This document shows, in pieces, positions 10,062-23,561 of a DNA stretch of 64,000 bases. Each line of letters starts with the position of its first letter. The stretch's first letter is position 1. Both the position numbers and the translations under genes were made by a program. The notes under the pieces were generated by a model that had not been told where the DNA came from, did not search any database, and saw only the letters and a list, made by a program, of their open reading frames with translations. Source of the stretch: Prosthecobacter vanneervenii. Lineage in GTDB: Bacteria; Verrucomicrobiota; Verrucomicrobiia; Verrucomicrobiales; Verrucomicrobiaceae. The stretch covers positions 62,001-126,000 of the forward strand of contig NZ_JACHIG010000004.1 in the NCBI RefSeq assembly GCF_014203095.1. The letters run 5' to 3'.

Positions 10062-13000
10062 CTACTGCGACATCAGGCCAGGCAGGACACGCACACGCCC
10101 GAACTGGCGGGAACCAACCAGCTTGTTCATGGTAAAGCTCATGTTGGTGCCAGTGCCCGTGAGAACCGTGGTGGCCGGGGTCCAGGTGCTGAGATCGCTG
10201 GAAGTCTCCACGATGTAAAGTCGCCCTGCCTTGGAGTTCCAAGTCAGCAGCAGTTCGTTGTCGGGCGCCGTTTGTGACTTGCTGGGAACGATTTCAAGAC
10301 GGTCCAAGGCGGAGCGTGGATCTGTGCCCGCTCTGAACTCGTTCAGGTCGCTCATGCCATCATGGTCGCTGTCCGTGGTGGCCGAAGCCAGGGACAGACT
10401 GCCGAAGTTCTGCATTTCCCACCAGTCAGCGATCCCATCGAGGTCGGTGTCGGCAATGGAGAAGGTGGCTTCGTAAATGCGGCTGACGTCGGAGCCTTTG
10501 ACAGAGATGGCGCGGATCTTGCCACTCCAGCCCATGCGCACAGGCGTGCCTGAGACGAACTGTGGGCTGGTAAAATCCGGTGCCGAACCGTCTACAGTGT
10601 AATGGATCTGAGTGGTCGCATCCGCAGCACCGATGACCACATTCACCGGCTGATCAAAAGACCCACCCGGGGGGGAGAAGGTGATGGCCGGCTGCGCAGC
10701 CCATGCCGAGACGGTGCCTGCAGAGGGGTTGGAGATGATCAAAGCATCATCGACGACCGCCGGGCTGCCGCCGCTGCTGAGCGTGGCGAGCAGCACCTGA
10801 TCGTAACGGCCAAAAATGAAAGTATTGCTGCCCGAAGCGGCAATGACGAGATCATCCGTGACCACAGGCTGACCGGAAAGGTAGGTGCCGGCGGGTGTGG
10901 AGTAGGTGCAGACAAGCCCCCCGTCCGTCGTGTTGCGAGCCTGCACGGTGTTTCCACTGATCACAAACACAGTGCCGCTGGAGACCGCCGGCGTGCCGGT
11001 GAAGTCACTATTTACTGACCAGACGACAGCCTGAGTGTCGAGGTTGATGCACACAAGGTCTTCATCGTAATAGACGGCCGTTGGACTGTCGTTCACAAGG
11101 TAGGCGCGACGGTTGTCCAGCGCCGTGGTACGGCCCATGCTGTAGCCAAATCCCCCCCATCCCAGGGATCGGGTCCAGAGGACAGCCCCAGAGGCTGGAT
11201 TATGACGTGCAAAGTCGCCGTTGACGAAGGCATAAAGCTCCGAGTCCAAGATGGAGGGCGTCCAGCTGTCTGACTGCGGTTTGGTCTGGAAAAACATCTG
11301 TGTGCCGCTGGCAGAGAGGCCATACATGCCGCCGTAGGCACCGCCATCGGCGAAGATGCCGAGATCTGACACTGCAGGTGCCATGTAATTTTCCCATTGT
11401 GCTGCAAGCGGCGCGGACCATACAGTGGCTCCGGTGTCCGACTGCAGGGCGTACAGCTGGGTGTCGCCGTAGTTGTTGCACCGCTGGACGTAGACGCGCC
11501 CGTTGTAATAACTGGGAGGGTTCATGGAAAACGCACTGGTGAAACTGCGCGACCAGAGCTGAGCACCGCTGCCCGCGTTCAGAGCGATCACACGACAGGA
11601 GGAGGAGTCGCGGAAAGAGGCATAGATTCTGCCTTCAGCACTGGCGATGGGCTGCAGGCTGTTGTAGCCGCCGCTGCCGACGGCGTTGCTCCAGCGCATG
11701 GCCCAGCCTGTTCTTCCCAGCGCTGAGGTGGAGTAGCCTGTATGCGCCGGACCGTTGCCAAAGCTAGGCCAGGTGCCTGTGATGGACTGCATGATCGAGA
11801 CAGTCACGCTCGCGGTGGCAGCAGCGCCTGAGGGATCAGTGATTGTGTAGCTGAACTGGGTGCTGCCCGTCGTGATGTCCGAGGGGGCCTGATAGCGCAG
11901 CGTGCCGTCAGAATTGCGCGCCACAGTGCCCAGAGCTGGCTGTGTGAAGGACAGAACCGTGAGAGCGTCTCCATCCACATCATAGTCATTAAGCCTTTCG
12001 CGAACAGGGCTGAGGATCTGGCCTGGTTGGGCAACTCGGACGTCCGCACGCGCCACAGGCGCATCGTTCACCGGCTGGACATTGAGGGTGGCCGTGGCAG
12101 GGGCTGAGAGGGATTTCCCGTCACTCGCAGCAAAATTGAAACTGGTCAGGGGCGAGCCATTGCGGTCAGCCGCAGGGAGGAAGATGACCTTCCCCTGGGC
12201 ATTGGTGACCAGCGTTGACGGCGAGGACACAGGATTGCCGATGGTGGTGCCGTCGCTGGTCTGGTACAGGGTGCCTGCTGCTGGCAGGGAGGTGATGACA
12301 AAGTTCAGGGCATCATTGTCCGCGTCTGTGCCCTGCAGGGTGAGCGTCACGCGCGTGTCTTCCAGCGTCGCAGCTGTCTGCGAGATGGCCGCAGGAGGGT
12401 GGTTTGCCGAATCCGGAACACTGAAGGAGCGGATGTAGTTGTCGCTTGAAGCAATGTACAGGGAACTGCCTGCGAGGCTGATGTTTCCACCGAAGAGAAT
12501 GGTCTGGCGCAAAGCTCGGGTGCCAAGGTCAAAGATGTAGGTCTTGGCTGCCGAGGAAGCGATGACAGCGTCATTAGTGACGATGGGCTGCATGACGAGC
12601 CCGGTGTCCGTGCCGGGTAGTGTGTATGCTCCGATGAAGACACCGGAGGCGGAGTCATACGCCCTGATGGAATTACCCCCTGAGATCGCGAACACTGCCT
12701 GGTGGGCCACGGCTGGTGTGCCGCTGAAGCTGCCAAGCACCTTCCAAGCGGCTTTTTTCTGGTTCAGATCCACACAGATCAACTCCTGGCTGCCTGAGGG
12801 GATGGTGACGGAGTCATTGACAAGGTAAGCGCAATTATACGCGCATGCCGTGGTCCTTCCCATGGAATAGCCTGCCCAGTTCCAGCCAAAGTCAAGAGAC
12901 CACAGAACCGCTCCAGTGGACTTGTTGTGGCTGCGGAAGATACCTTTCATGTAGGAGTAGAGCCCCCCGTTGTAGAGAGTGGGTGTCCACTGGTCGTACT

Positions 13001-16000
13001 GATCCAGAGACTGGTAAAACAGCTGTGCTCCTGTCGAAAGATTGTAGGCATACATGCCGCCATAGGTCCCACCATCGACGTAAACGCCCGAAGAGTCGAC
13101 TGCAGGCGCAAGGTAGGTTTCCCATTGCGCTCCAAAAGGCGAGCTCCATGTCGTGGCGCCAGTTGTGGCATTGAGGCAGTAGAGCTTGCTGCTGCTGGAG
13201 TAGGCATATTGCATGAACACACTATTGTTGAAAAATGTCGGAGGGTTCATGTAAGCAGGCTGGGTGAAATTAGATCGCCAAAGCTCGCCGCCACTCGCGC
13301 TGTCCAGCGCCACCAGGCTGGAGTCCTGGAAATAGACCTGCAAGCTTGCGAAAACTTTCCCCCCCGAAACTGCGAGCTGGTAGGCAGGCTTCGTCATGTT
13401 TGTCTGCCACACCTGGGTGAAGGCTGTGCTGCCAAGCCTCACCGGCAGAAAGCCTGTGTGATCCGGCCCGGCACCGAATGTAGGCCACGAGCGCCCCAAG
13501 GTGGTGCTGATGGTGACGCTCACCGCGGCAGAGGCCTGCACATTGGCAGCGTCGCTGATGGTGTACGTGAAGGTGTCAGTGCCAGAGGTGAAGCCGGCAT
13601 TGGGAGCATACTGCAGGGTGCCATCAGCGCTCTGCGTGACCTGCCCCGAAGCGCCCTGGGTGTAGGAGACCACCTTGAGCACATCTCCATCGACATCGCG
13701 GTCATTGGCCTCAGGATGAAAGTTCAGCAGGGATTCTCCAGGACGCAGGGCGATGCTGTCAGCCACAGCCACCGGCGGATCGTTCACAGGAGCGATGTTG
13801 ATGGAGATGGTCGCTGCTGCCGAAGTGGAGACTTGATCACTGGCGGTGAAGGTGAAGGAACCTGCTCCCGCCCCAAAGACATTTAGCGGAGCCACATAAA
13901 TCACAATGCCAGAGTCATTGAGCACCTGCGCGGGCGCCTGCGTGATGGCAGCTCCTTTGGTGTTGCCGTCCACAGTCTGGTAGAGAGTGCCTTGGACGGG
14001 CAGCGTGCGCACCACATAGCTGAGAGCTTCTCCGTCAGCGTCTGTACCTTCGAGGGTGATGGCGGCCTGGGCCTCTTCCAGAATACCCGCCTGGGCAGCG
14101 AGGGCCACAGGGGTGTGGTTTGAAGCCACAGTGTGGCCAAACAACCGGACTTTGTTGTCTGAGCAGGAGAGATAGAGCAGGTCGTTGACGACGGCCGCCT
14201 GGCTGCCAAACGCAAGCGTCTGAATCAAGGAGCGGTTGATCAAATTAAAGATATAGGTTTTTGAAGACGAGCCAATGATCAGCAGATCATTGCTGACAAC
14301 CGGACTGCCATTGAGGCTGGTTTCCGTCCCCGCCGTGTAGTCCCCGGTCCAGACGCCGGTCGAAGCATTGCAGGCTTTGACCACACCGCCGCAGCAGGCA
14401 TAGACGATCCCATTCGCAATGGCCGGAGTGCCGTTATAGTTTCCGGCGGTCCTCCACAGCACACTTTGTGTCTGCAGATCCACGCACACGAGTTCTGTGC
14501 CTGAGGCTCCCTGGTTGACGACATAAGCCCGTCCAGACTCACCGCAGATGGTGCGGTTCATGGACCCGCTTGATGATCCAGTCAGGTTTACAGACCACTG
14601 CACCACGCCTGTGTCCGGGTGGTGATTGCGGAACGTGTTGCTGACAAAGGAATAGACCTTGCCGTCGATGATGGCGGGAGTCCATTGATCCACCTGCTCC
14701 AGGCCGAGGAAGAATTTCTGCGTCCCAGTCTGGTAATTGAAGCCATAGATGCCTCCGTAGCTGCCGCCATCGACATAGACTCCCAGATCCGACACGGCAG
14801 GGGAGAAATACCGCTCCCACTGGGAATCGTGCGGAGTGTTCCAGAGCACGCTGCCATCAGAGGATTTGAGCGCCCAGAGCTGGGTGTCTCCGTAGTTGTT
14901 TCCGCGCTGTGTATAAACCGTCCCGGCATAATAGCTCGGCGGATTCAGTGAATTTCCTGGCTGGAACTTCGTGCGCCATGCCTCGCCGCCGGTGACGGTG
15001 TCCAATGCCACCGCATACATGTAGTTGTTCCAGTTGCCTGTCTGCGTGGCATAGACCTTGCCTCCGGCCACAGCGATCGGGTTGATGCTGGACGGGAAGG
15101 CATACTCCCAGCGCTGCACCCATGTCTGTGTGCCCAGGGATCCAGGATAGCGCCCTGTGTGATTTGGGCCATTGCCAAACTGCGTCCATTCCCTGCCATA
15201 CGAGGCGCTTACGAGCACCTGCACTGTTGCCGTGGATTGTGCGCCTGCACCGTCGCGAAGTGTGTACTGGAAGCTGTCCGTTCCCTCGGTGAAACCAGCC
15301 TGCGGTACATAGTTCAAGGAGCCGTCTCCATTCTGGGTCAGAGCGCCCCTGGCGGGATTGGTGAAGGAGACGATGGTCAGCGGCTCGTTGTCCACGTCCA
15401 CATCATTCGCTGTTGGCTGGTAGGAACTCAGAGTGCTGCCGGCCCGCAGATACACCGTGTCATTCACGGCAACAGGCGGATCATTGACGTTTGTAATATT
15501 GATGGTGGAAGTGACTTCAGCGGAGCTGATCGTGCCGTCGTTGACCTTGAACTTGAACGTGGTGTAGGGCGTGCCGAAACCGTCGGGCGCCGGACGGTAG
15601 ATGACCTTGCGTGCAGAATTTTGCACAACAACAGGTGCTAGCGTAATCGGACTGCCCACCTGCACGCCGTCGGGCGTCTGGTACATGACTCCTTTGGCCG
15701 GGAGGCTGGTGATGATGCCGACGATAGGGTTGTTGTCTGCATCCGTTCCTGGCAGCGTCAAGGTCAGGAGCTGGTCTTCGACACCAGTGGCCATCAGCAC
15801 CGAGGCCACGGGGGCCCTGTTGCCGGAGCTGATCACCGCATAGCAGCGCAGAACGCCGTCTGTGCCCGCCAGCAGCAGGTAGCCATTGCTGAGACTGGGG
15901 ATGCCGCCGGCGGCAATCGTTTGTATTTTGGTGCCCGAGCTGAGGGTATGAACAGCAGTGCTCGTCGATGATGAGGCGATGAGCGCATCATTGGTGATGA

Positions 16001-19000
16001 TGGGCTGGTAAAGCCCCGTGCTGCCAATGCCAGTGATGTAGGTCTTCTGCAGGGTGCCTGTGCTGATATCATAGGCGTTGACGTTTCCTGAAGCATCAAA
16101 GGCATAGACAGAAGATCCCGAAATGGACGGCGTGCTGACGGCAAAACCGGTCTGCACCCGCCAGCGGACGGCCTGGGTGGACAGGTCGATGCAGACGAGC
16201 TCGTTCGATGGCGTGCGATTGTTCACCACGAAGGCGGCACCCGAGGCAATGGCCATCGTGCGTGCCATGGTGTAGCCGCTCCAGTTCCACGTCAGGTCCA
16301 GTGTCCACTCGATGGCCCCGGTGGTCAGATTGTGCTGGCGGAATTTTCCTGTCACGAACGAATAGACTTTGCCGTTGTAAACGGAGGGGGTCCAGGTGTC
16401 GTATTGTTCAAGACTGGAGTTGAAAAACAGCTGACTGCCGGAGGTGCGGTTGTAGCCATACATGCCGCCATAGGTGCCGCCGTCCACAAACACGGAGGTG
16501 TCAGTGACTGTAGGAGGCAGGTACTCCTCCCACTGCGCACCGAAGCTTGTGGCCCATAATTGCGCTCCGGTGCCAGCATCGAGACTCACTGTCTGCGGAA
16601 AATCTGTGCCCGATGTTGACTTGCCACGCTGCACGTAGATTGATCCGCCGTAATAGGCGGGCCCGTTGATCGAGCGCGCCTGCAGAGGCCAGGTGTATTT
16701 CCATGCCAGGGTGCCGGTGACCAGATCCACGGCACTGACCTGCGTTTCGTTGAAATAGATGTCAGGAGAAGCAAACACCTTTCCTTCCGCGATCGACACC
16801 TGGTTGAGTGCCTGCGGGGCCACCTGCAGTGTCCAAGCCTGGGAAAGAGTCTGCCCGTTCAGGCTTCCGGGGTAAAAGCCGGTGTGTGCCGCGTTTGCCC
16901 CCATCATAGGCCAGGGGCCCGCAGCCAGGAGGCCCACGGCAACCGTCACACGGGCGGTGGCGGTGCCGCCCGCACCATCGCTGATGGTGTAGGTGAAGGA
17001 ATCCTGTCCGCTGGTAAAGCTGGCATTGGGCGTAAAGCTCAGCGTTCCGTCGCCATTGCTTGCCACAGTCCCCTTTTGGCCCTGAGTGAAGGAGGTGAGC
17101 GTCAGAGTCTGGCCGTCCACATCGATGTCATTGGCCAGCACTTTGATCGGCGAGATGACCTGTCCTGGCAGACCCGAAGCGGAATCATCAAAAGCCACGG
17201 GAATGTCATTCACCGGCGTGACATTGAGGGTGACCGTGGCCGCAGTGGACTGCGAACGCTTGTCCTTCATCAAAAACTGGAGGCTGCCGTAGGGAATGCC
17301 GTTGGCGTTTGGCGGCGGCACGAAGATCACTTTTTTCGCGTTGTTGGACACAATCGCCGGCGCGGCTGTAATGGGGTCGCCCAAGCTGGTGCCATCGCTC
17401 GTCTGGTAAAGGGTGCCGGCGGCTGGCAGCGTCTGGATTTGTGCGGTGAGTGCATCCCCTTCGGCATCGCTGCCTGTCAGGGTGATGACCGCCTGAGCAT
17501 CCTCATTCAGTGTCACGGTCTGCGCGTTTGCCACCGGCGGGGTGTTTGGCCGCTGCTGCACCGTCATCGTCACGGGAACAGAGACCACGGGATTCGCGGG
17601 ATCATTGGAACTGATGTCGATCTGGCCCAGGTAGTCGGCCGCCAGCTTGCTGGTCGCGTCCAAGGTGACCGTGACTGTGGCAGACTGACCCGGTGCCAGC
17701 GTGCCCCCGGCAGGGGACTGCGTCAGCCAGTTCAGGCTGGAATCCATGAGGCGGATGTCGTCCCACCAGGCCTCAGAACCAGTGCTGAAGTTGTAAAGCC
17801 AGAGCTGGGAGACTTCATCGACAAGGGAGGGATTACGGAATGGGATGCCCGCCTTGACCAGGGTGCCATTGACATAGTAGTCGAAGGTTTTTGCAGTCCA
17901 GTCGAGATTTTGAAACTCAACATGGTACCAGATGTTAGCCTGGTAGGTGTACGTCTTGTCTCCGCCGACATCGCCATTCACATAAAAGGTGCCCAGACCG
18001 CTCGCGTAGAACCAGATCAGCTCCGCGCCATAGGTGCCGTCTGTCAGGACGAAATAGCCGTCGTGTGTGGCCGTGGAGCCGGATCTCACCCAGAAGGAGA
18101 TGCTTTTCGGCTTTGCGCCGGAGGCGAAATCCTGGCTGATGCCGTTGAAGTGACTGGTGCTGCCCTGATAGGTATAGTGAAAACTCTTGCTGCCGGCAGC
18201 GGCCGTGCTGGAAACGATCTCCCGCGTGCCGGCACCTGAACCCATGGTCCAGTTGGATAGGGAGCCGCTTTCGAAACTGTCAGAAAACGGCAGCGTCGTG
18301 GAACCTGATTCGATGCGGATCAGCGCAGTCGCGCCCGCAGGCTGGGACTCGGCCGCAGCATCCTGCTGGTCTGTCACAGGCGCCGGGGAGATGCTGGCTG
18401 CGCCCAGATCCATCGAAAACACGGAGGCGCGTGGCACGGTGTTGATATCAAAGACCAGCGGCAGATCTCCATTGTTCGTCAGAGTCAGCGACTTCGTAGC
18501 CACGGAGTCTTCATACTGCGTGGAGGCCAGCGATGTGGGATTAACCTGGAGATGGGATTTGCCGAGTGCAAAATTCACAGCCGCAGGAGCGGGCGGCACC
18601 GTCACGACTGTGCTTGCGGATGCATTGTAGCCCGGAGCTGCCGCGCGGAACTGATAGGTTCCGTCTGTGAGATTGACACTGTACCTGCCATCTGCCGCCG
18701 CGATGACACTGCCCGTGGAGGTGCCCGTGTAACTGATAAGCGCACCGCCGATGCCTGCACCGCCTGTCACTGCCGTGACACTCCCTGCCACAGTGCTGCT
18801 CCTGAAGGCCGTGAGCTGGGCCTGGGCATCCCAAGTATTGCCATTTGTATCTGCCGTGGTCAGGTTGAGTGAGAAGACCAGCGGAGTGGGGGCGTTTGCG
18901 GCGATGCGGATCAGGAAAGGTGAGCTGCCGGTGTATGCAGTGCCACCCGCCGTCAGGTCGCCCCAGGAATGGCTGCCCTGCAGGACAGTGACGTAGTTCC

Positions 19001-20840
19001 CTGCTGAAGTTGAGCTGAGGGTGCTGGTGATCCCAAATGCGGTCTGCGAACCGCTGTTTTTCAGCGTTACAGCCAGCGTGATGTCTTCTCCAGGACTCAA
19101 GATGCCGTCGTTGTTGCCAGTGCCGCCCTGCTGACCGCTGTCCGAAGCCTGCAAAGTGGCCAGCGTCACATAAGGTCCTGTGGCAATGACGAGCGCCCGC
19201 GCCAGATTCAGTCGCCCGTTGGCGACCATCTTGCCGTTCATCCCAGCCACCCCATCGACGTTGGCAATCAGGGAATTTTTGATATCCAGCCATCCCATGG
19301 TCGGGCGGGCGGATTTCATCAATGCGCAGGAGCCTGCCACATGCGGGCATGCCATGGATGTGCCGCTCAAGGTGCGATAGCCGCCGCCAGGACTGGTGGA
19401 GTAAATGCTGACACCCGGAGCAGCAAGGTCCACCGTAGTGGCGCCAAAATTGGTAAAGCTGGCCAGCGAGTCCGTGTTGTCACTGGCGGCCACGGAGATG
19501 ATGTTGGCGGAATCATAGGATGCAGGATAGGAGGGCGAGACGTCGGTGTTGAGGCTGCTGTTTCCCGCCGCCGCGACGAACAGGATGCCGGCCGCACCGG
19601 CTGCATCGATGGCATCCTTCAAGGTTTGCGAATAGCCACCGCCTCCCCAGCTGTTGGAGGTCAGCGTCACGTGGTTGGCCGTGGCATAAAGCACAGCCTC
19701 GATCGCGTCTGAAGTGGAGCCGCCGCCGCCGCTGGAAAGGAACTTCAATGCCATCATGCGCACGTTGTGGCAGACCCCGGCGACTCCGATGCCATTGTTG
19801 CCCACGGCCCCGATGGTCCCTGCGCAGTGTGTTCCATGATAATGATCGTCTGCAGGGTCATTGTCGTTCGAGACGAAGTCCCAGCCGCGGGTGTCGTCAA
19901 TGTAGCCGTTGTGATCATCATCGATTCCATTGTCAGGCACTTCACCGGCATTCAGCCAGATGTTCGCCGCGAGATCCGGATGTGTGTAATCAATGCCGGT
20001 GTCAATGATCCCCACCACCACGGCGGCACTGCCACGCGCCACGTCCCAGGCCTCCGGTGCGTCGATGTCCGCATCGCCCACACCTCCATTCTGCCCATTG
20101 TTGTTCAAGCCCCAGAGCGAGGAGAAAGAGGGGTCGTTTGGCACCATGGAGGCAAAGACCACGTAGTCCGGCTCGACGACCTGCATGCCTTTCCCCTTCT
20201 GCCGGTAATCGGCCAGTTTGGAGTCGAACAAATCTAGGTCGGAGGTGCCCGGTTCCACAAGATAGACCTGCGAATTGGGCACATGTCTGCGCACCTTGCC
20301 CCCCAGGCTCTGCAGCACGGCCTGCAGTTCTTCAGCGGTTACGCCGTCCTTCAGAGTCATCAGGAAATGATCTGCCACCATGATCTTCTGATCCAGCATG
20401 GTGTCAGTGCCAGTTGTAGGATCGCGTTTCCACGACTCCTCAACGCGCAAATACGGATACTTGAACTTCGCCTCCACCACACGTTTCCGGGTGTAGTTGC
20501 CTTTTTCGTCGGGTGCTGTGTCCCGCTGCTGCAAGACACGCGCCTGCCTCAGAAAACGCTCCCGCTCTGCGCTGGCCGCCAGATCCGCGCCGCTACGCGG
20601 GGCCACGTAAGGTGCAGGCTCGTTTTTAGCCCCAGGATTTGCCTCCCGAGGGCCGAAAACTGCCGGGGCCGCAGAAGGGGAAGGTTGAACGCTGGCCGAT
20701 GCCCTGTCTGGCACTTTGGGTGCCGGTGAAGTGGAAGCAGAAGGGGATGCCTTTTTTGCAACAGTAGTCTGCCACCCCACAGCGGCTGCAAAAAGCAGGA
20801 CCAATGTCAGGGCCAGGAAAAAAATGCGCCGGGGTGTCAT
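10062..20840 (-). CDS. Giant subtilisin-like protease with four cadherin/PQQ-propeller modules
   Basis: About 3,592 residues from ATG 20840. That start gives a clean signal segment (MTPRRIFFLALTLVLLF). ATG 20864 and TTG 20876 are alternatives; the TTG has a possible GAAGGA before it, but adds acidic residues to the signal. Order: propeptide-like region (149-226); peptidase S8 domain (244-551) with Asp280 (IIDTGID), His335 (HGTHCAG) and Ser495 (GTSMACPH); beta-sandwich segments; carboxypeptidase-regulatory-like domain (690-755); LamG-like domain (850-1035); four modules of 567-575 residues (1099-3381), each with two cadherin-like domains (PVNDPPVA, ANDVDVD) then a PQQ-like propeller opening with a WPxFGxGPxHTG motif; chitobiase-C-like domain (3384-3460); DTDLDGIADWWE calcium-type repeats; C-terminal sandwich. 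Likely a secreted or surface protease. Substrate unknown; no sorting signal recognised. Confidence 0.92.
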   Translation of the reverse strand: MTPRRIFFLALTLVLLFAAAVGWQTTVAKKASPSASTSPAPKVPDRASASVQPSPSAAPAVFGPREANPGAKNEPAPYVAPRSGADLAASAERERFLRQARVLQQRDTAPDEKGNYTRKRVVEAKFKYPYLRVEESWKRDPTTGTDTMLDQKIMVADHFLMTLKDGVTAEELQAVLQSLGGKVRRHVPNSQVYLVEPGTSDLDLFDSKLADYRQKGKGMQVVEPDYVVFASMVPNDPSFSSLWGLNNNGQNGGVGDADIDAPEAWDVARGSAAVVVGIIDTGIDYTHPDLAANIWLNAGEVPDNGIDDDHNGYIDDTRGWDFVSNDNDPADDHYHGTHCAGTIGAVGNNGIGVAGVCHNVRMMALKFLSSGGGGSTSDAIEAVLYATANHVTLTSNSWGGGGYSQTLKDAIDAAGAAGILFVAAAGNSSLNTDVSPSYPASYDSANIISVAASDNTDSLASFTNFGATTVDLAAPGVSIYSTSPGGGYRTLSGTSMACPHVAGSCALMKSARPTMGWLDIKNSLIANVDGVAGMNGKMVANGRLNLARALVIATGPYVTLATLQASDSGQQGGTGNNDGILSPGEDITLAVTLKNSGSQTAFGITSTLSSTSAGNYVTVLQGSHSWGDLTAGGTAYTGSSPFLIRIAANAPTPLVFSLNLTTADTNGNTWDAQAQLTAFRSSTVAGSVTAVTGGAGIGGALISYTGTSTGSVIAAADGRYSVNLTDGTYQFRAAAPGYNASASTVVTVPPAPAAVNFALGKSHLQVNPTSLASTQYEDSVATKSLTLTNNGDLPLVFDINTVPRASVFSMDLGAASISPAPVTDQQDAAAESQPAGATALIRIESGSTTLPFSDSFESGSLSNWTMGSGAGTREIVSSTAAAGSKSFHYTYQGSTSHFNGISQDFASGAKPKSISFWVRSGSTATHDGYFVLTDGTYGAELIWFYASGLGTFYVNGDVGGDKTYTYQANIWYHVEFQNLDWTAKTFDYYVNGTLVKAGIPFRNPSLVDEVSQLWLYNFSTGSEAWWDDIRLMDSSLNWLTQSPAGGTLAPGQSATVTVTLDATSKLAADYLGQIDISSNDPANPVVSVPVTMTVQQRPNTPPVANAQTVTLNEDAQAVITLTGSDAEGDALTAQIQTLPAAGTLYQTSDGTSLGDPITAAPAIVSNNAKKVIFVPPPNANGIPYGSLQFLMKDKRSQSTAATVTLNVTPVNDIPVAFDDSASGLPGQVISPIKVLANDIDVDGQTLTLTSFTQGQKGTVASNGDGTLSFTPNASFTSGQDSFTYTISDGAGGTATARVTVAVGLLAAGPWPMMGANAAHTGFYPGSLNGQTLSQAWTLQVAPQALNQVSIAEGKVFASPDIYFNETQVSAVDLVTGTLAWKYTWPLQARSINGPAYYGGSIYVQRGKSTSGTDFPQTVSLDAGTGAQLWATSFGAQWEEYLPPTVTDTSVFVDGGTYGGMYGYNRTSGSQLFFNSSLEQYDTWTPSVYNGKVYSFVTGKFRQHNLTTGAIEWTLDLTWNWSGYTMARTMAIASGAAFVVNNRTPSNELVCIDLSTQAVRWRVQTGFAVSTPSISGSSVYAFDASGNVNAYDISTGTLQKTYITGIGSTGLYQPIITNDALIASSSTSTAVHTLSSGTKIQTIAAGGIPSLSNGYLLLAGTDGVLRCYAVISSGNRAPVASVLMATGVEDQLLTLTLPGTDADNNPIVGIITSLPAKGVMYQTPDGVQVGSPITLAPVVVQNSARKVIYRPAPDGFGTPYTTFKFKVNDGTISSAEVTSTINITNVNDPPVAVNDTVYLRAGSTLSSYQPTANDVDVDNEPLTIVSFTNPARGALTQNGDGSLNYVPQAGFTEGTDSFQYTLRDGAGAQSTATVQVLVSASYGREWTQFGNGPNHTGRYPGSLGTQTWVQRWEYAFPSSINPIAVAGGKVYATQTGNWNNYMYAVALDTVTGGEAWRTKFQPGNSLNPPSYYAGTVYTQRGNNYGDTQLWALKSSDGSVLWNTPHDSQWERYFSPAVSDLGVYVDGGSYGGIYGFNYQTGTQKFFLGLEQVDQWTPAIIDGKVYSFVSNTFRNHHPDTGVVQWSVNLTGSSSGSMNRTICGESGRAYVVNQGASGTELVCVDLQTQSVLWRTAGNYNGTPAIANGIVYACCGGVVKACNASTGVWTGDYTAGTETSLNGSPVVSNDLLIIGSSSKTYIFNLINRSLIQTLAFGSQAAVVNDLLYLSCSDNKVRLFGHTVASNHTPVALAAQAGILEEAQAAITLEGTDADGEALSYVVRTLPVQGTLYQTVDGNTKGAAITQAPAQVLNDSGIVIYVAPLNVFGAGAGSFTFTASDQVSTSAAATISINIAPVNDPPVAVADSIALRPGESLLNFHPEANDRDVDGDVLKVVSYTQGASGQVTQSADGTLQYAPNAGFTSGTDTFTYTISDAANVQASAAVSVTISTTLGRSWPTFGAGPDHTGFLPVRLGSTAFTQVWQTNMTKPAYQLAVSGGKVFASLQVYFQDSSLVALDSASGGELWRSNFTQPAYMNPPTFFNNSVFMQYAYSSSSKLYCLNATTGATTWSSPFGAQWETYLAPAVDSSGVYVDGGTYGGMYAYNLSTGAQLFYQSLDQYDQWTPTLYNGGLYSYMKGIFRSHNKSTGAVLWSLDFGWNWAGYSMGRTTACAYNCAYLVNDSVTIPSGSQELICVDLNQKKAAWKVLGSFSGTPAVAHQAVFAISGGNSIRAYDSASGVFIGAYTLPGTDTGLVMQPIVTNDAVIASSAAKTYIFDLGTRALRQTILFGGNISLAGSSLYIASSDNYIRSFSVPDSANHPPAAISQTAATLEDTRVTLTLQGTDADNDALNFVITSLPAAGTLYQTSDGTTIGNPVSSPSTLVTNAQGKVIFLPAADRNGSPLTSFNFAASDGKSLSAPATATLNVQPVNDAPVARADVRVAQPGQILSPVRERLNDYDVDGDALTVLSFTQPALGTVARNSDGTLRYQAPSDITTGSTQFSYTITDPSGAAATASVTVSIMQSITGTWPSFGNGPAHTGYSTSALGRTGWAMRWSNAVGSGGYNSLQPIASAEGRIYASFRDSSSCRVIALNAGSGAQLWSRSFTSAFSMNPPSYYNGRVYVQRCNNYGDTQLYALQSDTGATVWSAPLAAQWENYMAPAVSDLGIFADGGAYGGMYGLSASGTQMFFQTKPQSDSWTPSILDSELYAFVNGDFARHNPASGAVLWTRSLGWGGFGYSMGRTTALDNRRAYLVNDSPTAVYYDEDLVCINLDTQAVVWSVNSDFTGTPAVSSGTVFVISGNTVQARNTTDGGLVCTYSTPAGTYLSGQPVVTDDLVIAASGSNTFIFGRYDQVLLATLSSGGSPAVVDDALIISNPSAGTVSAWAAQPAITFSPPGGSFDQPVNVVIGAADATTQIHYTVDGSAPDFTSPQFVSGTPVRMGWSGKIRAISVKGSDVSRIYEATFSIADTDLDGIADWWEMQNFGSLSLASATTDSDHDGMSDLNEFRAGTDPRSALDRLEIVPSKSQTAPDNELLLTWNSKAGRLYIVETSSDLSTWTPATTVLTGTGTNMSFTMNKLVGSRQFGRVRVLPGLMSQ
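10700..17546 (-). repeat. Four tandem diverged protein-coding modules of about 1.7 kb in the giant protease gene
   Basis: Anchoring each unit at the NxxPVA motif that opens the first cadherin-like domain gives units at 15822-17546, 14121-15821, 12405-14120 and 10700-12404, that is 575, 567, 572 and about 568 codons. Each carries the same order of motifs: LPAxGTLYQT, VNDPPVA, ANDxDVD, GPxHTG, WExYxxPxV, VDGGxYGGMYG, DxWTP, and a closing SDNxVRxF-like strand. The copies differ at many positions and are not a recent duplication. Confidence 0.88.
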
Positions 20841-21050
20841 ACTGAATCCACTACGAATTTCCATCTCAAATCGCAAGCCTTTCCTTCGTAAATATTAGGT
20901 TACAAGATTAATTCACCCAGTATAAATCTTATCGCTTAAACGTTTTTTCAAATAGGATTCGTTGAATGGTATTTCACGGCAATTCCGATGTTCAAAACGT
21001 TCTGATTCAGTGAATTGTAAGCCGTTTTCTCTGGCTCATTTCTCTTTTTC
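20841..21050 (-). promoter_or_regulatory. AT-rich upstream region of the giant protease gene
   Basis: This stretch is clearly richer in A and T than its surroundings. Read on the minus strand it contains possible -10 hexamers TATACT and TAATAT within about 80 bp of the start codon, but no convincing -35 box at the right spacing. No coding sequence is supported here. A promoter for the protease gene is likely; its exact position is not. Confidence 0.35.
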
Positions 21051-21127: not shown

Positions 21128-21727
21128 TCAGTTGGCCTTCTTCGGACGGCCAAGCACATCGTCCTTGGTCGTGAGCGCGACGGCCACGACCTGGTCGATG
21201 AGATCCTGGCTGATCTTGAGATCCTTCAGGGTGTTCACGAGGTTTTCAGCGATGGCGTTGAAGTGCACCTCGGTCAGTCCCATGCCTTCATGGGCTTTGC
21301 GCATGTCCTTGCCTGTCCAGGGCAGCGGGCCGCCAAAGGCAGCGCTGAGAAATTCCTTCTGCTTCCGGCGCTGTTTGTCCATGCTCACATCATCAAAGAA
21401 GTGCTTCACACGGTCATCGGCCAGCACTTTCACATAGAAGGCATCCACAGCAGCATTGATGGCGGCCTTGCCACCCAGCTTCTGGTAAAGACTGTCCTCG
21501 CGCGCCTTCAGCCACTTCGTCTTGCAGGCCTCTTGGGCAAACGCCCATTTGCGGCCCTCATATTCGGTGTTGATGGCGGGATCCACAGGTTTGCCGCTGA
21601 TCGGGCAGATCGCGTTGGTGGCAGTTTCAGAGGCGACTGCGGCGGGGTCTACCGCCAGAGCAGCGGCGTTGACCAGCAGAGTCATGACAGCGGTGATGGT
21701 GACGAGGGATGAGAGGATGAGTTTCAT
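21128..21727 (-). CDS. Exported group I truncated haemoglobin with N-terminal YHS-like motif
   Basis: 199 residues from ATG 21727, chosen because it gives a signal peptide (MKLILSSLVTITAVMTLLVNAAALA); the frame is open to 21838 but adds no recognisable sequence. Residues 38-72 resemble a YHS/TRASH-type metal site: CPISGKPVD (Cys41) and WAFAQEACKTKW (Cys68). Residues 78-190 are a group I truncated globin: SLYQKLGGKAAI, FYVKVLADDRVKHFF, and AHEGMGLTEVHF with His146 as the probable haem ligand. Likely role: nitric oxide or oxygen chemistry outside the cytoplasm. It diverges from a trHb3-nnrS unit across two NsrR-like repeats. An exported globin is unusual; the signal peptide rests on hydrophobicity only. 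Confidence 0.85.
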   Translation of the reverse strand: MKLILSSLVTITAVMTLLVNAAALAVDPAAVASETATNAICPISGKPVDPAINTEYEGRKWAFAQEACKTKWLKAREDSLYQKLGGKAAINAAVDAFYVKVLADDRVKHFFDDVSMDKQRRKQKEFLSAAFGGPLPWTGKDMRKAHEGMGLTEVHFNAIAENLVNTLKDLKISQDLIDQVVAVALTTKDDVLGRPKKAN

Positions 21728-21748
21728 GGTTTGGTTGGGCCATGTAAT

Positions 21749-21771
21749 AAGTTGCATCGGCGATGCATCAA
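21749..21771. promoter_or_regulatory. NsrR/Rrf2-like 11-1-11 inverted repeat, site 1
   Basis: Left arm AAGTTGCATCG, central G, right arm CGATGCATCAA. The inner 15 bp are a perfect palindrome apart from the centre. Arm length, the AAG edge and the TGCAT core match the known NsrR box layout of two 11-bp arms around one base. It lies 21 bp upstream of the exported globin start and about 117 bp from the divergent globin start. Confidence 0.6.
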
Positions 21772-21870
21772 TGCACCGATCCTGCCTAGCTCTGCGCATT
21801 TCTTGCGTGGCACTTCTCGCGCCAATTCCTGCGCACAAGGGCGCAGGAAGCGGCGAGCGCTGCCCGTTTA

Positions 21871-21893
21871 AAGTTGCATCATCAATGCATGTT
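21871..21893. promoter_or_regulatory. NsrR/Rrf2-like 11-1-11 inverted repeat, site 2
   Basis: Left arm AAGTTGCATCA, central T, right arm CAATGCATGTT. The left arm is identical to that of site 1 except for the last base. The site overlaps the ATG (21889) of the group III globin, so a bound repressor would sit at the translation start. The right arm is the less perfect half. Confidence 0.5.
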
Positions 21894-22365
21894 TGATTCC
21901 TCCCAAGCTAACAAACCCGATATCACTGGACGCGCCGAGATCGAAACTCTGGTGAACACCTTCTACGACCGCGTCCGCGACGATGCAGTGTTGGGCTTCA
22001 TTTTCAACGAGGTCGCCCAGACCAACTGGACCACCCATCTGCCGAAAATGTATGCTTTCTGGGAAACGGTGCTCTTCCGCACGGGTGGCTTCACGGGCAA
22101 TCCCATGGCCGCACATGCCAAACTGGTGCCTCTTACAGACATGGGGCGTGACAAGTTTGACCACTGGCTGCAGCTCTTCCGCAGCACGGTCGATGATCTC
22201 TTTGCGGGAGAACGTGCCGAGCACATCAAGAACTGCGCCGCTGACATGGCCAATGTGATCTACTCGCGGATCAACCAGGTGCCCGACCCACGTTTTGATC
22301 CCGCTAATCTCACGCCAGAGCAGCGTGAGCGCTATGCACGCTACAAGCCGCCGCCCGTCGTATGA
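21889..22365 (+). CDS. Group III truncated haemoglobin
   Basis: 158 residues from ATG 21889; a TTG five codons earlier falls inside the operator-like repeat and is less likely. The sequence fits group III truncated globins: LVNTFYDRVRDDAVLGFIFN, then HLPKMYAFWETVLFRTGGF, then NPMAAHAKL, with the His of AAHAKL in the usual haem-binding segment. No signal peptide, so it should be cytoplasmic, in contrast to the exported globin opposite. Group III members are linked with NO-related or haem-redox roles. Its stop overlaps the nnrS start by 4 bp (ATGA), so the two are probably translationally coupled. Confidence 0.9.
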   Translation: MFDSSQANKPDITGRAEIETLVNTFYDRVRDDAVLGFIFNEVAQTNWTTHLPKMYAFWETVLFRTGGFTGNPMAAHAKLVPLTDMGRDKFDHWLQLFRSTVDDLFAGERAEHIKNCAADMANVIYSRINQVPDPRFDPANLTPEQRERYARYKPPPVV

Positions 22366-23561
22366 GCCAGTTTCCTGCCTGCAAACACAAAAAACACCGC
22401 GCCACCGGGCCGCGCCGTGACGGCCTGCGCTGGCTCGCTTCGGAGCCATATCGCGTGTTCTTTTTCAGTGGCGCTCTATGGAGCATCATCGGAGTGGTGA
22501 TGTGGCCGCTGTATTATGCGCAGCAGCTCGGTTTTTATCCCAGCTTTGTGCATGCGCGGATCATGATCGAGGCTTTTGGCGCAGCATTTGTCGTTGGCTT
22601 CCTCGGCACCGCCGGACCGCGCATGGCTACCGCGCCCAAGCTCACGCCACTGGAGCTGGCGTGGCTGTTCTCACTGCATCAGGCCTGCGGCATCTCCCAC
22701 CTCACGCTGCACATGGCGTGGGGAGATGCGTGCTTCATCGCGCTGCTCGGTTCATTGCTGTTGTGCCTCCTCATCCGCGTGGTGAAGTTCCGCAAAGATG
22801 CGCCGCCACCACAGTTGCTCCTCGCCCTTACCGGCCTGCTCTGTGGCATCACAGGTGCGTCATTGCTGCTTTCTTCCGTCACGCTGCTCGATCCGCAGCG
22901 TCTTCGTCTCGCCAACCTACTGCTATATCAGGGACTCCTGCTGCCGCCCGTTCTCGGCATAGGTGCGTTTGTGTTTCCACGCATGCTCGGCGGAGATTTT
23001 GGCGATCCCAAAACCGCGGCACAGAGCCGTACGAAGCTCATCCGCGCTGTCATTGCTGCTGCTTTACTCGTGGGCAGCTTTTTTCTCGAAGCCTGCGGCC
23101 ACGTCATCGCGGGCTATGCGTTGCGTGTCTTTGTGACGGCGGTTTATCTTCTCATTGAGGTCAGGTGGAAAACGGCGCAGAGCGGCTCTCTCACCACTGG
23201 CTTGTTCTGGTCGCTCATCGTGGGCGGACTGGGGCTGGCGCTGGCCGGGTTCTTCTATGCGCAGCATGTCAGCGTGGAGCACCTGCTCTACATTGGCGGT
23301 TTCGGCATGCTCATGCTCATCGTGGGCAGCCGCGTGCTCTTTGGCCACAGCGGCGACCTCGACGGCTTCTTTGTGAAGAGCAAATGGGTGCGTTTCCTGA
23401 TCTTCCTCGGTGTGCTGGCCGCCATCACCCGCGCCACACCTGCCTGGGCACCTTCCACCACGGTGTCTCATCATATTTACGCTGCATTCACGTGGGCTCT
23501 GCTGGCTCTCTCCTGGCTGCTCTGGCACCGCAGGCGCTTTGTGAAGCGGGATGAGGAGTAG
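22362..23561 (+). CDS. nnrS: NnrS family membrane protein (nitric oxide response)
   Basis: 399 residues with about twelve hydrophobic segments. Features typical of NnrS are the N-terminal SEPYRVFFFSGALWSIIGVV, HARIMIEAFGAAFVVGFLGTA, and VEHLLYIGGFGMLMLIVGSR toward the C-terminus. NnrS is a haem- and copper-containing integral membrane protein of NO-response regulons that protects against nitrosative stress. It begins inside the stop of the upstream globin gene (ATGA overlap), which makes a functional link with that globin strong. The gene ends 22 bp before a hairpin that separates it from the radical SAM gene. Confidence 0.88.
   Translation: MSQFPACKHKKHRATGPRRDGLRWLASEPYRVFFFSGALWSIIGVVMWPLYYAQQLGFYPSFVHARIMIEAFGAAFVVGFLGTAGPRMATAPKLTPLELAWLFSLHQACGISHLTLHMAWGDACFIALLGSLLLCLLIRVVKFRKDAPPPQLLLALTGLLCGITGASLLLSSVTLLDPQRLRLANLLLYQGLLLPPVLGIGAFVFPRMLGGDFGDPKTAAQSRTKLIRAVIAAALLVGSFFLEACGHVIAGYALRVFVTAVYLLIEVRWKTAQSGSLTTGLFWSLIVGGLGLALAGFFYAQHVSVEHLLYIGGFGMLMLIVGSRVLFGHSGDLDGFFVKSKWVRFLIFLGVLAAITRATPAWAPSTTVSHHIYAAFTWALLALSWLLWHRRRFVKRDEE

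Follow-up and report, generated by a model that had tools for sequence, protein, structure and literature searches.

In Proteobacteria and Bacillus, as set out in the available text of PMC1274295, NsrR is an Rrf2 repressor whose operators follow the palindromic consensus gATGyAT-N5-ATrCATc and whose targets include nnrS, haem NO-detoxifying proteins and, in some species, nirK. The same text gives the glbN operon as the sole predicted NsrR target of Legionella pneumophila, with a single-domain globin replacing flavohaemoglobin and with a reductase; it names no exported globin and no nnrS there. The original prediction took NsrR to be known mainly from Proteobacteria and Bacillus, a description that holds for these groups and has to be widened to Streptomyces, where the protein is well studied too (PMC5411485, available part). 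In ScNsrR of Streptomyces coelicolor, the cluster ligands are Asp8 and three Cys, Arg12 joins Asp8 to the DNA-binding region (available text of PMC5411485), and the operator fragment is 23 bp long (PMC5411485 and PMC9338935, available parts). ScNsrR regulates its own gene and two hmp genes only, according to the accessible portion of PMC4861436. On plasmid p4 of the alphaproteobacterium Roseomonas mucosa (L194), an NsrR-like gene occurs together with hmpA and a group III truncated globin. The regulator and hmpA have an operator-like site between them, and the examined stretch has no annotated exported globin. For the mat studied in PMC10866078 (available text), nsrR is reported from two candidate phyla only, and the available text of PMC11102522 has no NsrR. 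In the literature searched, we found no description of an NsrR regulon in Verrucomicrobiota or Prosthecobacter.

Here we describe a predicted regulon of an NO-responsive repressor in Verrucomicrobiota. Its best conserved targets include an exported globin, and it would extend known NsrR-type control to a new phylum. The window, a 64,000-nucleotide stretch of the Prosthecobacter vanneervenii genome, contains a divergent gene unit with the following features:

21128-21727, minus strand: group I truncated globin of 199 aa, exported; signal-peptide-like N terminus, YHS-like module
21744-21771, minus strand: possible promoter of the exported globin, TTGATG (21771-21766) and TATTAC (21749-21744), 16 bp apart, identified by eye
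21749-21771: operator 1 (predicted), 11-1-11 palindrome, AAGTTGCATCGGCGATGCATCAA, 8/11 pairs, 1/14 mismatch to the NsrR consensus
21871-21893: operator 2 (predicted), 11-1-11 palindrome, AAGTTGCATCATCAATGCATGTT, 7/11 pairs, 2/14 mismatches to the NsrR consensus
21889-22365, plus strand: trHb3, group III truncated globin, 158 aa, Pfam Bac_globin 23.1 bits
22362-23561, plus strand: nnrS, membrane protein of NO stress, Pfam NnrS 109.3 bits
23600-24739, plus strand: TIGR04053 radical SAM/SPASM protein, related to the haem-synthesis proteins AhbD/NirJ, NCBIfam 440.4 bits (cut-off 395)

Pfam and PDB comparisons agree with the original gene calls, which had the repeats framing a divergent unit of an exported globin and trHb3-nnrS and read its content as two truncated globins plus NnrS; the exported globin falls in group I and the cytoplasmic one in group III. 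Specifically, the exported globin scores 67.7 bits against Pfam Bac_globin, its PDB matches are cyanoglobin and HbN, and the best Foldseek matches of its AlphaFold model are HbN; its signal peptide is a by-eye call. Pfam YHS gives no match in the exported globin of the window, and one of three homologues tested (L237) reaches 29.8 bits against a cut-off of 30.3. The sole PDB match of trHb3 is 2ig3, a group III globin. The reading frames of trHb3 and nnrS share 4 bp, nnrS has only one match in the genome, and the radical-SAM gene follows it after a 38-bp gap, provided that the listed GTG start is correct. A TIGR04053 gene also lies downstream of nnrS in six named relatives (L197, L202, L204, L205, L208 and L217), and the radical-SAM gene probably ends the operon. 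Globins of the HbN type oxidise NO, and NnrS is a protective protein under NO stress. The genes targeted by the predicted sites are NO or nitrite genes, namely the globins and nnrS, and in sister species also nirK, which lies in the operon there. Elsewhere in the window, a single open frame of 3604 residues (10062-20876) has, by eye, a subtilisin-like start and repeated domains.

The unit shares with the regulon of Proteobacteria and Bacillus the palindrome, the type of repressor and the nnrS and haem targets, but it lies in another phylum, has no hmp in the operon and carries an exported group I and a group III globin instead, its half-site is GTTGCAT, and one operator lies over the trHb3 start codon (compared with the available text of PMC1274295). 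It resembles the Legionella operon in using single-domain globins, and Roseomonas p4 is alike in placing trHb3 near an NsrR-like regulator and differs in having hmpA.

The two 23-bp inverted repeats, their shared left arm and their TGCAT core were confirmed at the coordinates given in the original prediction, and the sites, of the NsrR-like 11-1-11 layout proposed there, have 1 and 2 mismatches to the 14 defined positions of the published consensus. The pair counts in this register make both sites imperfect inverted repeats. Common to both are AAGTTGCATC and the TGCAT core, and their half-sites read GTTG in place of the consensus GATG. The trHb3 start codon (21889-21891) falls within site 2, a feature absent from the original prediction. 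With up to 2 mismatches to the NsrR consensus, the 64-kb window contains both sites and no others; as a control, the same scan detects the known sites at hmp and ytfE of Escherichia coli without a mismatch. When a looser regular expression matching both sites was run on 100 Markov-1 copies of the window, the mean was 0.05 matches per copy and no copy had 2. A pattern built from the two sites, and thus fitted to them, finds just these two in the 6.66-Mb genome (control, 0). The pattern AAGNTGCATNNNNNATGCANCTT with up to 2 mismatches occurs at four places in the genome, which are both sites, the interior of a helicase-like open reading frame (by eye) and the start of a cytochrome c gene; with up to 3 mismatches it occurs at 26, compared with 1 for the reversed pattern. 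We inspected the genes around three such places outside the window (L039, L040 and L047), and most of the 3-mismatch places are probably due to chance.

The imperfect pairing would also be expected if the palindromes had arisen by chance and coding constraint had preserved the one at the trHb3 start. The comparison of orthologous regions is the strong test that the sites exceed chance. Across 14 orthologous divergent regions, including that of the window, the operator arms have mean identities of 0.95 and 0.94, compared with 0.77 for the sequence between the sites and 0.70 and 0.69 for the five-base operator centres. Within the intervening sequence, one 23-bp stretch has a value of 0.89 and is about as conserved as the sites, which could be read in favour of chance and suggests that other elements, perhaps promoters, are also kept there. 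Against chance stand the better conservation of the arms than of the intervening sequence on average and of the spacer bases, the non-coding position of site 1, and a search of 56 relatives that yielded 43 palindromes (up to 1 mismatch) compared with 1 for the reversed pattern; the same motif also recurs at nsrR, as described below. Chance is therefore a most improbable explanation of the two sites.

The possible promoter of the exported globin is placed inside and beside site 1. The outer arm of this site, CATCAA (TTGATG on the globin strand), is identical in all 14 orthologous regions and, judged from the sequence, could be a -35 element sharing operator bases, which would explain the departure of the outer arm from AAG. 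A simple sigma-70 and terminator scan of the divergent unit returned no promoter or terminator, and the promoter at site 1 is for that reason put forward as a candidate.

The 43 palindromes in relatives, sorted by hand, lie before nsrR (13), at trHb3 (13), before an exported globin (1), in a second globin divergent unit (6), at the start of a cytochrome c gene (5) and elsewhere (5). Exported-globin loci provided a test free of the bias of pattern-based selection, being picked by protein without the pattern (30 loci from 40 matches); 21 of the 30 have a palindrome that passes a shuffle control (at most 1/100 shuffles). The repeats are thus kept upstream of orthologous genes, as had to be checked, in the 14 divergent regions, at these loci and at nsrR. 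At trHb3 starts, 16 of 36 fail the shuffle control, among them L026 and L028, which still show a recognisable site, and we rejected the idea that every trHb3 is under this control. Among named verrucomicrobial trHb3 loci with no exported globin found nearby, a palindrome is listed in only 4 of 33. No palindrome passes the shuffle control at the starts of nnrS (0/19), of X448 (0/27) or of the radical-SAM gene (0/9), and the one passing palindrome among eight starts of the HPP gene adjoins nsrR.

In the genome of the window, the start codon of a diheme cytochrome c gene (G000:C8; L149:4119-4141) also carries an NsrR-type palindrome. This site is present in 7/7 pattern-picked rows, two of which are distant cytochromes, and among 28 protein-picked orthologues it is strong in five (the nearest ones, own included) and weak in two, so that the diheme cytochrome c is a possible lineage-specific target only; we set it aside as a firm further target after the protein-picked count.

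The candidate binding protein lies outside the window, as the original prediction had it, and the Rrf2/NsrR homologue with three Cys that was to be sought is present in the genome. Specifically, one of five Rrf2 genes, at G000:C9:141275-141712, encodes an NsrR-like protein of 146 aa that scores 110.5 bits against PF02082 (cut-off 30), in keeping with an Rrf2-type winged helix-turn-helix protein, and has ScNsrR as its best solved relative (E 2.8e-24). This C9 regulator has Asp8, Arg12, Cys90, Cys98 and Cys104, the same residues in the same places as ScNsrR (available text of PMC5411485 and PMC9338935). The Asp8/Arg12/three-Cys pattern is found in 52 of 53 aligned NsrR-like rows, the exception (L168) being a frameshifted fragment. 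The remaining four Rrf2 proteins of the genome (G000:C1, C6 and C7; L001, L002, L004 and L005) all have Glu8, and three of them keep the three Cys. Their Glu8 recalls the redox sensor RsrR, in which position 8 is Glu. The RsrR cluster is held by Cys, Glu and His, to judge from a reference title within the available text of PMC9338935.

We assign a probability of about 0.86 to the reading that both palindromes are operators of an NsrR-type repressor encoded at C9, released by NO and controlling both divergent units and its own gene. The observations behind it are the sites, their conservation, the regulator gene with its ligand pattern, and the linkage to the same genes in other families, and they favour the NO regulon in Verrucomicrobiota that the original prediction had proposed.

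An unlikely alternative is that the C9 regulator responds to iron or redox state, as a RirA-, IscR- or RsrR-like protein, and happens to use an NsrR-like operator, so that the globins would answer to those signals and not to NO. The NCBIfam scores leave room for it, with 126.5 bits for NsrR (cut-off 182) and 121.1 bits for RirA, both below cut-off, and a protein of Streptomyces venezuelae at first regarded as homologous to NsrR proved to be an Rrf2 protein of a novel type (PMC5015018, available part). The hmp-linked regulators of Priestia and Roseomonas also fall under the NsrR cut-off, and the Roseomonas protein scores higher for RirA; we therefore did not take this cut-off as defining. The C9 regulator falls outside RsrR, having Asp at position 8, and outside IscR, as E. 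coli IscR has Arg8 and Thr12. In a tree of 62 Rrf2 sequences, midpoint-rooted, with long branches and without a true RirA, a 100/100 split places the NsrR-like proteins, the C9 regulator among them, with E. coli NsrR and the hmp-linked Roseomonas and Priestia regulators, and IscR and the four other Rrf2 proteins of the genome on the opposite side. NsrR is also favoured by the match of the operator to its consensus and by the NO genes among the targets, to which sister species add nirK in the operon.

Still less probable, and in our view very unlikely, is that another factor binds the sites, either one of the four other Rrf2 proteins encoded in the genome or an FNR/DNR-type regulator, since FNR-type regulators control nnrS in some Proteobacteria (available text of PMC1274295). 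By eye, the sites do not fit the DNR consensus CTTGATnnnnATCAAG or the NnrR consensus published in that text. All four other Rrf2 proteins have Glu8, two of their genes are flanked by cysteine-synthase-like open reading frames (by eye), and two that were examined have no palindrome at their own start.

An NsrR-type repressor controlling its own gene, as ScNsrR does (PMC4861436, available part), is predicted here from the sites before nsrR. In 19 of 20 orthologue rows (at least 72% identity, own gene included), nsrR is preceded by a palindrome at a distance of 49-51 bp; the sole miss, L185, has the gene split in two fragments. The site before nsrR in the genome itself, AACATGCACGCCGGGTGCAAGTT, is degenerate, lies 50 bp upstream and has 2 mismatches to the generic core. 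When all 56 NsrR-like rows are considered, 39 pass the shuffle control (at most 1/200) and 17, mostly distant ones, fail. Rows were dropped before the count when the match started past residue 45, when less than 150 bp of upstream sequence was present (for example, L062) or when they were duplicates. Part of the nsrR loci were picked by pattern, and their nsrR genomes were also found by protein search.

Regulator and operator also occur together. Among 56 genomes, in sets compiled by hand, 24 have both NsrR (E 1e-12) and the palindrome (up to 1 mismatch), 8 have NsrR only, 3 the palindrome only and 21 neither (Fisher p 3e-6). Palindromes are present yet no NsrR is found at E 1e-12 in G004, G014 and G024, and trHb3 occurs without NsrR in G004, G036 and G041. 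In a survey of 387 genomes of the phylum, an NsrR-like protein (E 1e-20) is found in only 18 and the strict consensus in 5, three of these being without an NsrR-like protein at E 1e-20; with only G282 and the genome itself having both, the strict consensus is not useful as a phylum-wide marker.

From these comparisons we infer binding, an Fe-S cluster, NO sensing, repression and the following order of events. Without NO, the repressor would be a dimer whose Fe-S cluster has three Cys and Asp8 from the partner subunit as ligands. It would occupy operator 1, where the exported globin probably has its promoter, as well as operator 2, at the trHb3 start, keeping both units off. NO would attack the cluster, and the repressor would leave the DNA. 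Its release would allow the exported globin, the cytoplasmic globin, NnrS and probably the haem-pathway radical-SAM enzyme to be made. The repressor would govern its own gene as well.

In relatives, nsrR is linked to the same genes. It adjoins the exported globin in G037, G055, G049, G282 and G283, which represent four families by assigned labels, the neighbour in G283 being a globin-domain match only; each of the five has a shuffle-passing palindrome at nsrR or at the globin. In particular, nsrR and the exported globin of G037 are separated by an operator that matches the consensus perfectly, and G049 has a single cluster of nsrR, the exported globin, X448, trHb3, nnrS and nirK. In the genome of the window, the gene after nsrR is X448; its product shows, by eye, a CxxCH motif and matches nothing in Pfam or NCBIfam. 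A nirK-cytochrome c fusion gene lies between trHb3 and nnrS in four named relatives (L206, L211, L215 and L246), with a palindrome at trHb3; that of L206 (TIGR02376, 362 bits, cut-off 296) is followed by a sulfatase-modifying-factor/SCO1 protein. Other trHb3-nirK pairs (L014, L022, L024, L153 and L154) have no passing site, and a search for nirK in the genome of the window gave no match apart from a cytochrome domain.

A second exported-globin divergent unit, in L116-L123, L139 and L177-L179, is paired with a chorismatase/RidA-like gene (TIGR04444, 167.9 bits, below the cut-off of 325). Its two NsrR-type sites are about 123 bp apart, much as the 122 bp in the window.

A stretch of about 46 kb in G016 (C1:756278-802197; L329-L333, matching L334-L342) has 99.5-99.9% identity with G024, in two pieces, and over parts of its length with G028, G004 and G011; all are from the genus of the window but from different species. 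It has one sharp end, which in G024 is GGCAAAATAGG-ATGATA-CCTATTTTGCC, a dif-like 11-6-11 palindrome with variants in G028 and G011. The stretch carries genes for COX1/NorB-like, NorQ, VWA and YtfE-like hemerythrin proteins and two exported globins, and it also holds a globin divergent unit with NsrR-type operators. It is apparently a mobile NO/denitrification island, unless it reflects cross-contamination of metagenome-assembled genomes.

Several genomes of the genus have NsrR-like paralogues next to trHb3 and the exported globin, and the main NsrR occurs together with such a paralogue in G009, G011, G019, G028, G033, G034 and G247. Five paralogues of 39-46% identity (L141, L142, L143, L186 and L322) have AATAGGTAT-type palindromes near trHb3-globin pairs; the L322 palindrome is near an exported globin, and an HPP membrane protein lies nearby in L141, L142, L143 and L186.

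Residue 37 of the recognition helix tends to covary with the operator triplet. Paralogues with Lys37 have GAAGYAT half-sites (3/3; one Lys37 protein is in the tree, the others being too short). Those with Leu/Val37 and Asn38 have TAGGTAY in 5 of 7, L322 being close and L147 without a site; the TAGG group is a single clade (100/99), so its five cases may be one event. With Arg37, half-sites are mostly [G/C]NTGYAT, from which L072, L075 and L092 depart, and several Arg37 rows have no site. We consider it an even bet that, in one verrucomicrobial lineage, NsrR has diverged into paralogues each with an operator language of its own, most of them adjoining the same globin genes, and that mobile NO islands with matching operators could plug into a host repressor. 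Residue 37 aligns with Tyr40 of ScNsrR, which touches a base nine positions from the operator centre (available text of PMC9338935), and would thus be a natural specificity code for NO repressors, predicting which residue sets operator choice in NsrR.
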